Of a DNA stretch of 64,000 bases, positions 30,966 to 58,971 are shown piece by piece. Every line of letters starts with the position of its first letter. Position 1 is the first letter of the stretch. This DNA is from Persicimonas caeni (lineage in GTDB: Bacteria > Myxococcota_A > Bradymonadia > Bradymonadales > Bradymonadaceae): assembly GCF_006517175.1 (NCBI RefSeq), contig NZ_CP041186.1, positions 6,723,074-6,787,073 on the forward strand. The letters run 5' to 3'. The notes beneath the pieces are model-generated. The model did no database searches. It was not told the origin of the DNA and saw nothing but the letters and a program-made list of their open reading frames with translations. Position numbers and translations under genes: made by a program.

Positions 30966-31550
30966 TTACTGGACGGTCAGCGGGGCGACGATGGTCGAGG
31001 GAAGACCCAGCGTCGATTTGCTCACCGTGCTCGCCGGCCAACTCCAGATGGTGCTACCGCTATCGGAGCAGGCGCCCGTGCTGATGTCCCAGTAGCTCGC
31101 GTAGGCGTTCTGCTGGCTCGAGATCGCCGCCTTGTTCTGCGGGTTGTTGGGGAGCAGATAGGCGTTGCTCTGCACCGACCAGACTGCGGTTTTGGCGTGG
31201 ATGCTCTGCTCGACGTCGTCGAGGTAGATGTACGGGGTGCCGCTGCAACCGGTGTTCGAGTACAGCGTGTAGGTGATGGTCGGGGTGCCGTCCCACTTGA
31301 GCGAGACCAGGTAGCCGTTGCCCGTGCGCACGGCGACCTGCTCGAGGCTGGCGCCGAGGACGGTACCGATCACCGTGCCGTTGCCGTCGACGAGCTGAGA
31401 GCCGCCGCTGCTGGCGCCGTCGCAGACGTGGCTGGTGAAGTCGACTTCGCCGGTTTCCAGGTTGCCGTTGCGCGCGGTTCCGCCGCCGTCACCGTTGTCG
31501 AGGCCGGAGGTTACCGTGATGCCGCTGTCGGGGCAGGTGTCCCCGCACCC
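30966..31550 (-). pseudogene. C-terminal remnant of a secreted DUF7151-like protein
   Basis: The frame encodes 'CPDSGITVTSGLDNGDGGGTARNGNLETGEVDFTSHVCDG', a pattern like the Cys-bounded DUF7151 repeat (C-x-x-GG...GLDxNGNG...EVxxTxxVCxG), then a beta-rich C-terminal domain of ~140 residues. Upstream the frame runs into two REP-like repeats (31548-31600 and 31778-31830) whose translation is clearly not native, and no start, signal peptide or ribosome site is present. The N-terminal part has probably been lost by a repeat-associated rearrangement. The terminator downstream remains intact. Confidence 0.55.
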
Positions 31551-31600
31551 GCATAGAATGCGGCTCGTCGGGGAACCTGGTTCCCTTACGAGGGGCGTGA
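31548..31600 (+). repeat. REP-like double hairpin, copy 1
   Basis: CCGCAT-AGA-ATGCGG hairpin followed by CTCGT-C-GGGGAACC-T-GGTTCCC-TT-ACGAG, i.e. two consecutive perfect stems. It is the best-formed member of a family of eight in the window. Confidence 0.85.
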
Positions 31601-31777
31601 AGTCGGGGGCGCGCGCCCGCTCTGCGGCGCCGGGGTCCGTTTCGGGTCCCGAACGTGTTTGGGCGGCGCTCGCGCCGCCGGAGACATGCAAGCTGCGGCC
31701 AGAGTCCGCAGGGCGGGCCAGAGGCGCCGCGCCCCGACCGAAGCGAGGGCACCGGCGAAGGGGCGAAAGGGCGCGCA

Positions 31778-31830
31778 CCCGCATAGAATGGGCTTCGTCG
31801 GGGAACCTGGTTCCCTTACGAGGGGGGCGA
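31778..31830 (+). repeat. REP-like double hairpin, copy 2
   Basis: Same orientation as copy 1, 178 bp away, with GGCTTCGTCGGGGAACCTGG followed by TTCCCTTACGAGG. The region between copies 1 and 2 is GC-rich and apparently non-coding. Confidence 0.85.
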
Positions 31831-31969
31831 GATTGCACCACTAGATGTCAACGGACGGGCAAACTGATCGCGCTCAGTTCGGCCAAAGTGATCGCGATTT
31901 TCGGGCGGATGTCATGGGCGATTTCTCGTCGTTCTCCTCAAGGTGCTGGTTCGGCCAAAGTGATCGGGT

Positions 31970-32722
31970 TTAGGCCGTCTTGGCTCGGGCTTTCGACGGC
32001 GGGTTTCGATACGAGTGCCCGTCGAGCGTGACGACGTGGCAGTGGTGTAGCAGTCGGTCCATCGCCGAGCTGGCGAGCAGCGCGTCACCAAACATGGCGT
32101 ACCACTCGTCGATGGCGCGGTTGGATGTGATCACGAGCGAGCCCTGCTCGTAGCGGCGGCGTATCAGCTCGTACAGGTCGACCGGCTCGTCCTGGGCCAG
32201 CGGACGCAGCCCAAGATCGTCGATGATCAGGAGGTCGACCGCGCACAGCTTGTACATCAGCTTGTCCCAGCTGCGGTCGGCGCGGGCTGCTCGAAGCTCG
32301 CTCAAAAGCTGATGTGCGGCGACATACCTGGTCTTGTAGCCGGCTCGACAGGCCCGGTGACCCAGCGCCTGGGCGATGTGCGACTTGCCCGTGCCGGCCG
32401 GGCCGACCAGGAGCACGTTTTCTTGGCGCTCGACAAAGCTTGTGGTGCCGAGCTCGATGATCCGCTCGCGTGGGATCTTGGGATTGAAGCTGAAATCGAA
32501 ATCCTGAAGCGTTTTGTGGGCCTCGAAATCAGCCTGGCGAATCAAGCGCGTCAGCTTATTGGCATCGCGGCGCTCCACCTCGTCGTGGAGCAGTCGATAG
32601 ACAAAGTCGACGTAGCCAAGCTTGTCGTCGACGGCCTGCTCGGCGCGAAGCTCCAGCGTATTGAGAAGCCCCGACAGCCGCAGGCGCTTGAGGATGGGGA
32701 CCAGATCATCACGAGCGCTCAT
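31970..32722 (-). CDS. istB: IS21 IstB-like ATPase helper
   Basis: 250 residues. Walker A 'LLVGPAGTGKSHIAQALGH', Walker B 'VDLLIIDDLG', sensor region 'GSLVITSNRAIDEW'. AAA+ regulator of target choice that partners IstA, related to DnaC. Start codon lies 14 bp inside the end of istA. Confidence 0.95.
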   Translation of the reverse strand: MSARDDLVPILKRLRLSGLLNTLELRAEQAVDDKLGYVDFVYRLLHDEVERRDANKLTRLIRQADFEAHKTLQDFDFSFNPKIPRERIIELGTTSFVERQENVLLVGPAGTGKSHIAQALGHRACRAGYKTRYVAAHQLLSELRAARADRSWDKLMYKLCAVDLLIIDDLGLRPLAQDEPVDLYELIRRRYEQGSLVITSNRAIDEWYAMFGDALLASSAMDRLLHHCHVVTLDGHSYRNPPSKARAKTA

Positions 32723-52090: not shown

Positions 52091-52141
52091 AAGGGGGCGT
52101 CAGGGAACGACGTTCCCCGACGAGCCGCACGACATGCGGTC
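52091..52141 (-). repeat. REP-like double hairpin, copy 3 (3' side of RAYT)
   Basis: On the minus strand: CCGCA-tgtcg-TGCGG then CTCGTCGGGGAACGTCGTTCCC. The stem has changed to GGGAACG/CGTTCCC from GGGAACC/GGTTCCC elsewhere, a compensatory pair change that supports a selected hairpin. Confidence 0.8.
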
Positions 52142-52159
52142 GAACGCGCCTTCGGGCCG

Positions 52160-53080
52160 TCACGCGCACCGGCACAGCCCCGGTGGATACGTCCCCGTGG
52201 GGAAGCTCACCTGCGACTTACCTTTTCGCCACCTTCCCATCGCCCGTTTATAGGCGTCGACGGTGGTCATGCGAGCCTCCAAGTACGCACTCTTCTTCTC
52301 CTCGTCGGCGCAAAGGCATTTGACTCGAGGAGAGCGCTTGGGCGCGGGCGGGATATACCTCCACTTCATGCGCTTGACCTTGGCGGGGCCCGCGACGCTC
52401 TTTCTTTTTCGAGCGCGCTCTTTTTGCAGTTCGGTTGCTTGTTCCTCGATGTGGGTCACAACGAGCTGGCGCGCCTCCTCCTCGGTTTTGTTTTCCCACA
52501 TCGGCAGCGTTGCGAGTACGAGCTCGTCGCTTCGCATGGCCTTTTCGCGCGGAGTTGACGGATCCTTGCGCCGAAGTCTGCGCAGCTCTTCGTAGTCGAT
52601 GAGTCGTCCGACCTGCGCCTCGCCGGTCTTGTGGGACTTCCATGACGACACCCCCGGCCAATCCTCGGGGTGGCGCACCGCATCGGACAGGCACGGGTTG
52701 TTGACGATGTAGTTGAGCTTCTCCAGGAGCATGTCATCGCCGATGATCTTGGGCGCATCAAAGGGGCGTGGAAACACCGTGCCGGTGCGGTTTCTGTGGC
52801 GGTTGAGGCGAGCGGCAAGCTCGCGCTGGAAGTCGCGCATGAACTCGGACAGGTTCATCTTGGGCGCGCGTACGAGCAGGTGAAAGTGATTGCTCATGAA
52901 GACGTAGGCGAAGATCTCGACCTCGTGCTTCTGAGCCGCCCAAGCCAGACAGGCTAGGCAAATGCGTTGCATCTCACCGTCATCGTCAGGGCGCATCAAG
53001 AACCTCGCCTCGATGCAGCGATTGGTCACAAAGTAGAAGGCGTCGTCTTCGAGGATTCGAATATTGTCAATGGCAGGCAT
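52160..53080 (-). CDS. REP-associated tyrosine transposase (RAYT, IS200-like Y1)
   Basis: 306 residues, GGGAGG upstream of the ATG. HUH motif in 'MSNHFHLLVRAP', an upstream 'FYFVTNRCIEARFLM' strand, and the catalytic Tyr in 'LLEKLNYIVNNPCLSDAV' define the Y1 transposase fold of the RAYT group. The C-terminal ~140 residues are a basic extension (KERARKRKSVAGPAKVKRMKWRY). RAYTs nick REP hairpins; here REP-like double hairpins flank the gene on both sides in opposite orientation. It lacks classical IS ends of its own. Confidence 0.92.
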   Translation of the reverse strand: MPAIDNIRILEDDAFYFVTNRCIEARFLMRPDDDGEMQRICLACLAWAAQKHEVEIFAYVFMSNHFHLLVRAPKMNLSEFMRDFQRELAARLNRHRNRTGTVFPRPFDAPKIIGDDMLLEKLNYIVNNPCLSDAVRHPEDWPGVSSWKSHKTGEAQVGRLIDYEELRRLRRKDPSTPREKAMRSDELVLATLPMWENKTEEEARQLVVTHIEEQATELQKERARKRKSVAGPAKVKRMKWRYIPPAPKRSPRVKCLCADEEKKSAYLEARMTTVDAYKRAMGRWRKGKSQVSFPTGTYPPGLCRCA

Positions 53081-53205
53081 CGCAACTTCCTCCCGATTAG
53101 CAGTCAATCCAGTTAGCTCTCACTATGGTTTTCGGCAGAACCGGCCGAATCGTTGCGTGCTCGGGCGAATTTTTTTCGAGCGATCGGGATACAACGAGGC
53201 GCTGA

Positions 53206-53256
53206 CCCGCATGAGACGGGCTCCGTCGGGGAACCTGATTCCCTGTCGCGAGGGGA
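53206..53256 (+). repeat. REP-like hairpin, copy 4 (5' side of RAYT)
   Basis: CCGCATGAGACGGGCTCCGT followed by CGGGGAACCTGATTCCC; the main stem has one mismatch. It lies 126 bp upstream of the RAYT start codon. Confidence 0.75.
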
Positions 53257-53367
53257 AGGTTTTGGGGCAATCTCTGTTTTTCGAGCAGGAGGGGGCAGCA
53301 TCCTCCTGACTGATGGGCATCTTTGTCCGTCGCCGGCACCTCTCGACGGTTGAAATGTAGCGGAGGG

Positions 53368-53410
53368 CCGCATACCACGGGGCTCGTCGGGGAACCTGGT
53401 TCCCGTCGGC
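53368..53410 (+). repeat. REP-like hairpin, copy 5
   Basis: CCGCATACCACGGGGCTCGT then CGGGGAACCTGGTTCCC with a perfect inner stem; a GTCGGCGGTTCCC partial duplicate follows. The 53081-53440 gap holds only these two copies and no gene. Confidence 0.75.
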
Positions 53411-53440
53411 GGTTCCCGTCGGCGGCCCGTTGGAGGGGTC

Positions 53441-58205: not shown

Positions 58206-58240
58206 CACGGTGAGGGAATGGGGTTCGTCGACGAGCCGGG
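58206..58240 (-). repeat. REP-like hairpin, copy 6 (degenerate)
   Basis: On the minus strand GGCTCGTCGACGAACCCCAT followed by TCCCTCACCGTG; it has lost part of the stem. It lies 40 bp from copy 7 in the same orientation. Confidence 0.6.
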
Positions 58241-58279
58241 CCTTAGGCGCCGTCGTCAAAACTGATGGTATTTTCCGGC

Positions 58280-58326
58280 ACGGTGAGGGAATGGGGTTCC
58301 CCGACGAGCCGCATTCTGTGCGGGGG
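58280..58326 (-). repeat. REP-like double hairpin, copy 7
   Basis: On the minus strand CCGCAcagaaTGCGG, then CTCGTCGGGGAACCCCATTC and CCTCACCGTG. The first stem is perfect and the second is shortened to GGGAA/TTCCC. Confidence 0.75.
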
Positions 58327-58446
58327 CGGGGGCACTTGGTCTCGTTTTCTGAGGGCTTGTTCGGAGCAAGTACGAGCACATCGGGTGCGTTGTGCAGATG
58401 GCTGCAGTGATGACATTGTTAGCCAACCTTCTGCACGGAGCCGAGG

Positions 58447-58910: not shown

Positions 58911-58956
58911 CTCGTGAGGGAACCAGGTTCCCCGACGAGGCCCATTCTGTGCGGGT
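58911..58956 (-). repeat. REP-like double hairpin, copy 8
   Basis: On the minus strand CCGCACAGAATGGG, then CTCGT-CGGGGAACC-T-GGTTCCC-TC-ACGAG with both outer and inner stems intact. It lies between two convergent genes (GNAT and the lipoprotein). Confidence 0.8.
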
Positions 58957-58971
58957 TTGCTGAGTTTTTGG

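Follow-up and report, generated by a model that had tools for sequence, protein, structure and literature searches.

Pairs of a REP-associated tyrosine transposase (RAYT) and its REP repeats have been reported from many phyla, including deltaproteobacterial RAYT relatives (PMC6006769, PMC3733652), and are thus not confined to the gammaproteobacteria named in the original prediction. The E. coli RAYT reads the GTAG tetranucleotide through residues W94, Q95, E100, H101, and R104 (PMC6006769), and RAYTs have been viewed as single-copy genes that are not themselves mobile (PMC3116915). CGTC-tagged REPs have been reported without an adjacent dedicated transposase (PMC3733652), and among the TIRYT/TIRtron relatives, some have flanking inverted repeats that occur in moderate copy number, while members of subclass 2.3 can be multicopy (PMC3733652, PMC6006769). 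The window analyzed here, a 64,000-nucleotide stretch of a genome represented by one contig of 8.05 Mb, harbors a RAYT gene that is bracketed by palindromic repeats. It is considered quite probable that the two represent a cognate RAYT/REP pair, because of the fold and motifs of the protein, the layout of the flanking repeats, their copy number, their restriction to the RAYT-bearing genome, the family-specific enrichment of copies, and a fixed 3′ end combined with a variable 5′ extent. The genome-wide data derive from model and pattern searches, together with 40 stretches of 20 kb.

The RAYT open reading frame spans positions 52160 to 53107 on the minus strand, with a likely ATG at approximately position 53080 that is preceded by GGGAGGAAG, thus specifying a product of approximately 306 amino acids (52160 to 53080). 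This product matches Pfam PF01797 (Y1_Tnp; E = 1.3e-7) and scores 68 bits with the NCBIfam model NF047646 (REP_Tyr_transpos), which is under the curated cut-off of 80. It harbors the HUH motif NHFH and the Y motif YIVNNP, and so possesses the HUH and single-tyrosine core with a Y---NP motif that defines class 2 RAYTs. An AlphaFold model built from 11 family members (mean pLDDT, 89.9) returned the E. coli RAYT with its REP hairpin (PDB 4er8; E 1.1e-5) as its top Foldseek match in the PDB, followed by the transposases of IS608 and ISDra2. By fold, motifs, and arrangement, the window system therefore belongs to the RAYT family. The five GTAG-reading residues of the E. coli protein align, in the order given above, to F, P, A, P, and I in the window RAYT. 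A C-terminal extension of approximately 150 amino acids (residues about 155 to 306) is conserved in relatives, and no structural match to this part of the AlphaFold model was found by Foldseek. The gene is neighbored by a histone-deacetylase-like gene and a methyltransferase gene. A conserved 5′ leader (GGTTCTGCCGAAAACCATAGTGAG and variants) precedes the RAYT genes of this type (type A), those of a second type in the same genome (type B), and that of the genome G008 discussed below (L001 to L019 and L080), the surrounding DNA having diverged; this leader is possibly a regulatory or recognition element.

As had been anticipated, the RAYT is flanked by repeats in opposite orientation. On its 3′ side lies a minus-strand copy with the loop variant GTC (52098 to 52143; 52.7 bits with covariance model R1), and on its 5′ side lie two plus-strand copies, a proximal one (53203 to 53248; 58.8 bits), whose equivalent position is also occupied at the second type-A RAYT locus (L002), and a distal one (53364 to 53409; 55.3 bits), in which the 3′ arm and flank are tandemly duplicated (GGTTCCCGTCGGC twice, at 53383 to 53420). 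Exact tandem duplications of a hairpin arm plus a few unique flanking bases were likewise observed at L020, L023, L042, and L119 (at about position 2270). Dispersed copies are located on the plus strand at 31545 to 31590 (66.3 bits) and, 230 bp away in the same orientation, at 31775 to 31820 (69.0 bits), and on the minus strand at 58281 to 58327 (CCCCA loop; 32.8 bits) and at 58913 to 58958 (68.1 bits), the latter downstream of a gene encoding a GNAT acetyltransferase (Pfam). These seven copies were recovered with R1 at E ≤ 1e-4; the remaining member of the eight originally counted, at 58206 to 58242 on the minus strand and adjoining the copy at 58281, is a degenerate partial copy recognized from the sequence only and missed by R1 at E ≤ 1. 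A search with the core CTCGTCGGGGAACCTGGTTCCC, allowing up to three mismatches, yielded 10 matches in the window, 3 of which represent the second strand of a palindrome, against 0.00 expected from shuffles. Beside the copies at 31545 and 31775 begins a gene for a DnaA/IstB-like ATPase (31840 to 32400 and beyond), probably an IS21-family helper, of which six equal-scoring copies are present in the genome (170115, 1706102, 2709231, 6187795, 6755178, and 6949166). The distance to a type-A repeat is 330 bp for one of these and 2.5 kb for another, and a third is located within a type-B cluster; the element possibly prefers REP-rich DNA.

Across the genome, the type-A repeat is present in 64 copies at E ≤ 1e-3 and in 86 at E ≤ 1 (covariance model), the typical unit being ACCCGCATRRAATGSGCYTCGTCGGGGAACCTGGTTCCCTTACG. 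The palindrome bears a CGTC tag (CGTC-G-GGGAA-loop-TTCCC) and is preceded, at a distance of approximately 16 nt, by a CCGCAT box. Of 57 distinct copies, 54 carry CGTC at the 5′ foot of the hairpin, in place of the canonical GT[AG]G tetranucleotide, and 51 retain all five pairs of the GGGAA/TTCCC stem. The five bases of the loop are variable (CCTGG, CCCCA, TGTAC, and others), and CGT often pairs, across an internal loop, with an ACG that trails it. Among the full-length copies, 42 of 52 contain the box as CCGCAT or CCGCAC. Most copies are intergenic, without overlap with predicted genes, and the short palindrome in dozens of copies thus corresponds to a canonical REP in distribution. At 4.308 to 4.313 Mb (L118/L119), several copies occur in DNA for which a simple gene caller predicted almost no genes.

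The form of two adjacent hairpins that had been proposed for the repeat does not hold in general. CCGCA(T/C) is conserved as a sequence and its partner arm is not: all six pairs of CCGCAT/ATGCGG are present in only 3 of 52 full copies, the outer pair in 10 of 53, and the third pair in 15 of 53. A conserved CCGCAT/ATGCGG hairpin was thus rejected, as its pairs rarely form and the pair counts reveal no covariation beyond that of shuffles. The second stem, GGGAA/TTCCC, is genuine, though invariant; the first amounts mainly to a sequence box that is conserved. Nor does the change GGGAACG/CGTTCCC in the copy at 52091, which had been read as compensatory, speak for selection of a stem, since the predicted fold places the two bases concerned at either end of a three-base loop, and some copies have one change without the other (CGTGG loops). 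No stem covariation was detected within the type-A family (cells with changes on both sides were at least as numerous in 460 of 500 shuffles), an outcome which had been named beforehand as refuting the reading; because the stem is invariant within this one genome, however, the lack of covariation is not decisive.

Two type-A RAYTs are encoded in the genome, at 6.775 Mb (the window) and at 3.893 Mb, which are 86% identical (82.5% over 1.08 kb) and share the same inverted layout, with two repeats upstream and one downstream. A further 17 RAYTs (type B) are 39 to 43% identical to the window RAYT, and none of these has a strong R1 (CGTC) copy beside it. Most are instead flanked by palindromes of the ACACGGTGTCAGACACCGTGT type, which do not have the GTC foot; an exact palindrome pair was not seen for L018, L019, or one side of a few other type-B RAYTs. 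The 13-base core of this second palindrome occurs at 96 sites in the genome. Many pairs of type-B gene units are 82 to 97% identical, reaching 97% over approximately 1.3 to 1.5 kb, and because such identity is combined with a sharp left edge at an AAACAGA box and unrelated flanks, these units appear to be mobile. Two type-A genes and 17 apparently mobile type-B genes in one chromosome seem to contrast with the view of RAYTs as single-copy genes that do not move themselves (PMC3116915).

Such observations are central to the strongest rival to a cognate pair, according to which the repeats are subterminal ends of an IS200/IS605-like element (a “TIRtron”), the dispersed copies descend from old insertions as solo ends and MITE-like derivatives, and the RAYT is an ordinary transposase which has not been domesticated. 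This explanation overlaps the cognate-pair reading, from which it differs in what moves, and falls a little short of being probable. In addition to the 17 copies of the type-B unit, it draws on the AAACAGA box located approximately 35 nt outside the palindrome and common to both type-A RAYTs and the left end of the 17-copy family; in the window, alignments point to a candidate left terminus containing this box at 53272 to 53286 on the minus strand, outside the proximal palindrome. Furthermore, some dispersed type-A copies are units of 150 to 360 bp with a second hairpin at the opposite end. Against this, type A comprises two gene copies but about 60 repeats, and most repeats are without the AAACAGA box and are preceded by unrelated upstream DNA. 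The homology that links related dispersed copies has its limit on one side at the hairpin's 3′ end and covers 47 to 307 bp on the upstream side; three groups of extended units were distinguished, one of which (approximately 155 bp) carries a hairpin of its own, CGCCCCGAG...CTCGGGGCG, at the other end.

The genomic distribution of the copies is markedly local. With flanking copies removed and copies within 2 kb merged, 17 of 39 independent dispersed type-A sites have a type-A RAYT no more than 100 kb away, against a circular-shift mean of 1.9 (P = 0.014, a moderate value given only two type-A RAYTs). Within 20 kb of the 17 type-B RAYTs, there are 0 type-A sites against 3.3 expected. Conversely, of 46 dispersed type-B sites, 32 have a type-B RAYT at a distance of up to 50 kb (circular-shift mean, 9.5; P = 0.004), and only 1 has a type-A RAYT at such a distance. 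For Thauera, Nunvar and colleagues described more than a third of the REPs as lying close to the rayt gene and suggested that they form preferentially there (PMC2817692), so that local accumulation is not without precedent. Clusters at 4.27 to 4.36, 0.167 to 0.21, and 5.635 to 5.639 Mb have no type-A RAYT nearby, and no decayed RAYT remnant was found in the stretches of these orphan clusters that were read; such clusters count against the cognate-pair reading. Orientation agrees in 23 of 26 neighboring dispersed copies (permutation P = 5e-5), following the neighborhood and apparently not gene direction. Orientation set by the replication fork was also considered and is unsupported, as flips occur within single clusters, with dnaA at 3.30 Mb and a weak sampled GC skew.

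Local copies could alternatively be products of replication slippage and of tandem or segmental duplication at the palindrome, without transposase activity. Some copies are indeed plain tandem duplications of flanking DNA, as in the tandem arrays of 109 to 113 bp at 6.793 Mb; arm-plus-flank motifs are duplicated at several copies, and all 10 neighboring pairs less than 400 bp apart are in the same orientation, with 0 inverted, a pattern which also departs from the REPIN layout, in which an inverted REP pair is the replicating unit. As a general account, this origin is nevertheless judged improbable, since most copies combine unrelated flanks with a sharp shared 3′ end, copies reach tens to hundreds of kilobases away, and enrichment near each RAYT family is family specific. 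A search for empty sites or target-site changes, using joined flanks and the sequence stretches read, found none and returned tandem-array and self matches only, a result that also counts against the cognate-pair reading.

No copy of the type-A repeat was detected in 20 further genomes from the family or in 56 further genomes from the class. The repeat is absent from relatives without this RAYT, and the equal abundance in RAYT-free relatives that would have told against the original prediction was not encountered. That the palindrome is instead a host-selected regulatory or topological element (a terminator, or a gyrase or nucleoid site), only incidentally associated with the RAYT, agrees with its mostly intergenic location but is very improbable in view of this absence from all other genomes of the class examined, of an orientation that follows neighborhood rather than gene direction, and of the clustering near RAYTs.

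A single contig scan identified no close relative, the best of the full-length matches being 39 to 40% identical. A sample of 379 genomes from the phylum yielded, outside the genome of the window, a RAYT of 52% identity at best, which belongs to another genus (G008). Located at 1,279,249 to 1,280,142, this gene is flanked by inverted repeats of the form GTC-GGGTG-CCACCC, which retain the GTC foot and differ from GGGAA/TTCCC in the stem, the change affecting both arms jointly. In this 5-Mb genome, the 13-base core has nine exact copies, all of them at 1,278,764 to 1,282,039, within approximately 2.5 kb of the RAYT. Sequence identity shows another genome, G006, to be a Lujinxingiaceae MAG and G018 to be Lujinxingia vulgaris, which places the genome of the window in the same GTDB family grouping, within the order Bradymonadales. 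Several RAYTs of G006 are accompanied by GTC-GGCTCCCCTGAGG repeats. The CCGCAT box was seen in type A, in type B, and in an outer copy of G008, and not in G006. Most other long RAYTs that were tested gave no strong flanking match. Short repeats in opposite orientation, often as small arrays and each of a different sequence, were observed on both sides of the RAYT relatives L165, L168, L169, L175, and L163 from deltaproteobacterial, myxobacterial, and planctomycete MAGs.

The reading of the window locus as a REP/RAYT system is thus retained with respect to the protein family and fold, the inverted flanks, the dozens of intergenic copies, and their absence from relatives, and the equivalent arrangement around the 52%-identical RAYT of another genus lends it further support; the double-hairpin form and the argument from a compensatory change are given up. 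For the cognate pair, it is proposed that the RAYT, as an HUH-tyrosine single-strand DNA transposase, most likely recognizes the repeat as a folded single strand, through the hairpin formed by GGGAA/TTCCC, its (C)GTC foot, and the CCGCAT box approximately 16 nt upstream. The protein would most likely nick near the hairpin, and the hairpin, together with variable upstream passenger DNA, would most likely be pasted into nearby single-stranded DNA, so that new copies would build up in the vicinity of the RAYT gene and, within a given neighborhood, would mostly share one orientation. REP binding, nicking, the use of GTC as a guide, and transposition itself are steps that we infer.

More tentatively, with doubt outweighing confidence, we suggest that the long-RAYT lineage recognizes a GTC foot, together with a CCGCAT box, in place of GTAG, has been only partly domesticated, as one branch would still be a 17-copy mobile element with REP-like ends, and spreads REPs by local, strand-coherent copying. 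Such a lineage would stand between IS200/IS605 elements and domesticated REPtrons, and one chromosome would accommodate two systems that do not cross. The findings bear on how REPs spread and on whether RAYTs are domesticated or still mobile. A CGTC-footed palindrome stands beside the RAYT in both type-A loci, and repeats with a GTC foot accompany RAYTs in two other genera as well. Two RAYT families and two palindromes with little spatial mixing in one genome constitute a natural specificity experiment, and because copies are concentrated near the gene, local target choice becomes testable.

The window system is of a known kind, differing in its recognition tag, its longer protein, and its unusually local spread. 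It resembles the REPtrons of E. coli, Pseudomonas, and Stenotrophomonas (PMC2817692, PMC3116915, PMC8266576) in its HUH/Y1 transposase, its inverted hairpin flanks, the dispersal of copies in intergenic DNA, and the presence of one repeat family per RAYT type. In contrast to REPtrons, it has (C)GTC in place of GT[AG]G at the hairpin foot, with the GTAG-reader residues replaced, its protein comprises approximately 306 amino acids rather than roughly 150 to 200, and its repeats cluster near the gene without being paired as inverted doublets. With IS200/IS605 elements (IS608 and ISDra2), which are bounded by hairpin ends, it shares the catalytic fold and subterminal hairpins, whereas the Y motif YIVNNP ends in NP rather than in the Q of the Y---Q motif, the gene has neighbors other than the frequently associated tnpB, and hairpin copies outnumber gene copies. 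TIRYT/TIRtron proteins, or TnpA-Y1 subclasses 2.1 and 2.3 (PMC3733652, PMC6006769), are likewise longer RAYT relatives with a C-terminal extension; unlike the present system, with its NHFH/YIVNNP motifs, these subclasses were reported without REP-like flanks. Finally, the CGTC-tagged REPs (PMC3733652) are likewise short palindromes with 5-nt loops and a CGTC tag at the foot, but their families 1 to 4 have stems of 8 to 9 bp that start with A-T pairs in positions 1 and 2 and end in a CCA-like tail, while the repeat described here carries the same tag on a stem that starts with GGGAA (GGGAA/TTCCC) and has its RAYT adjacent.
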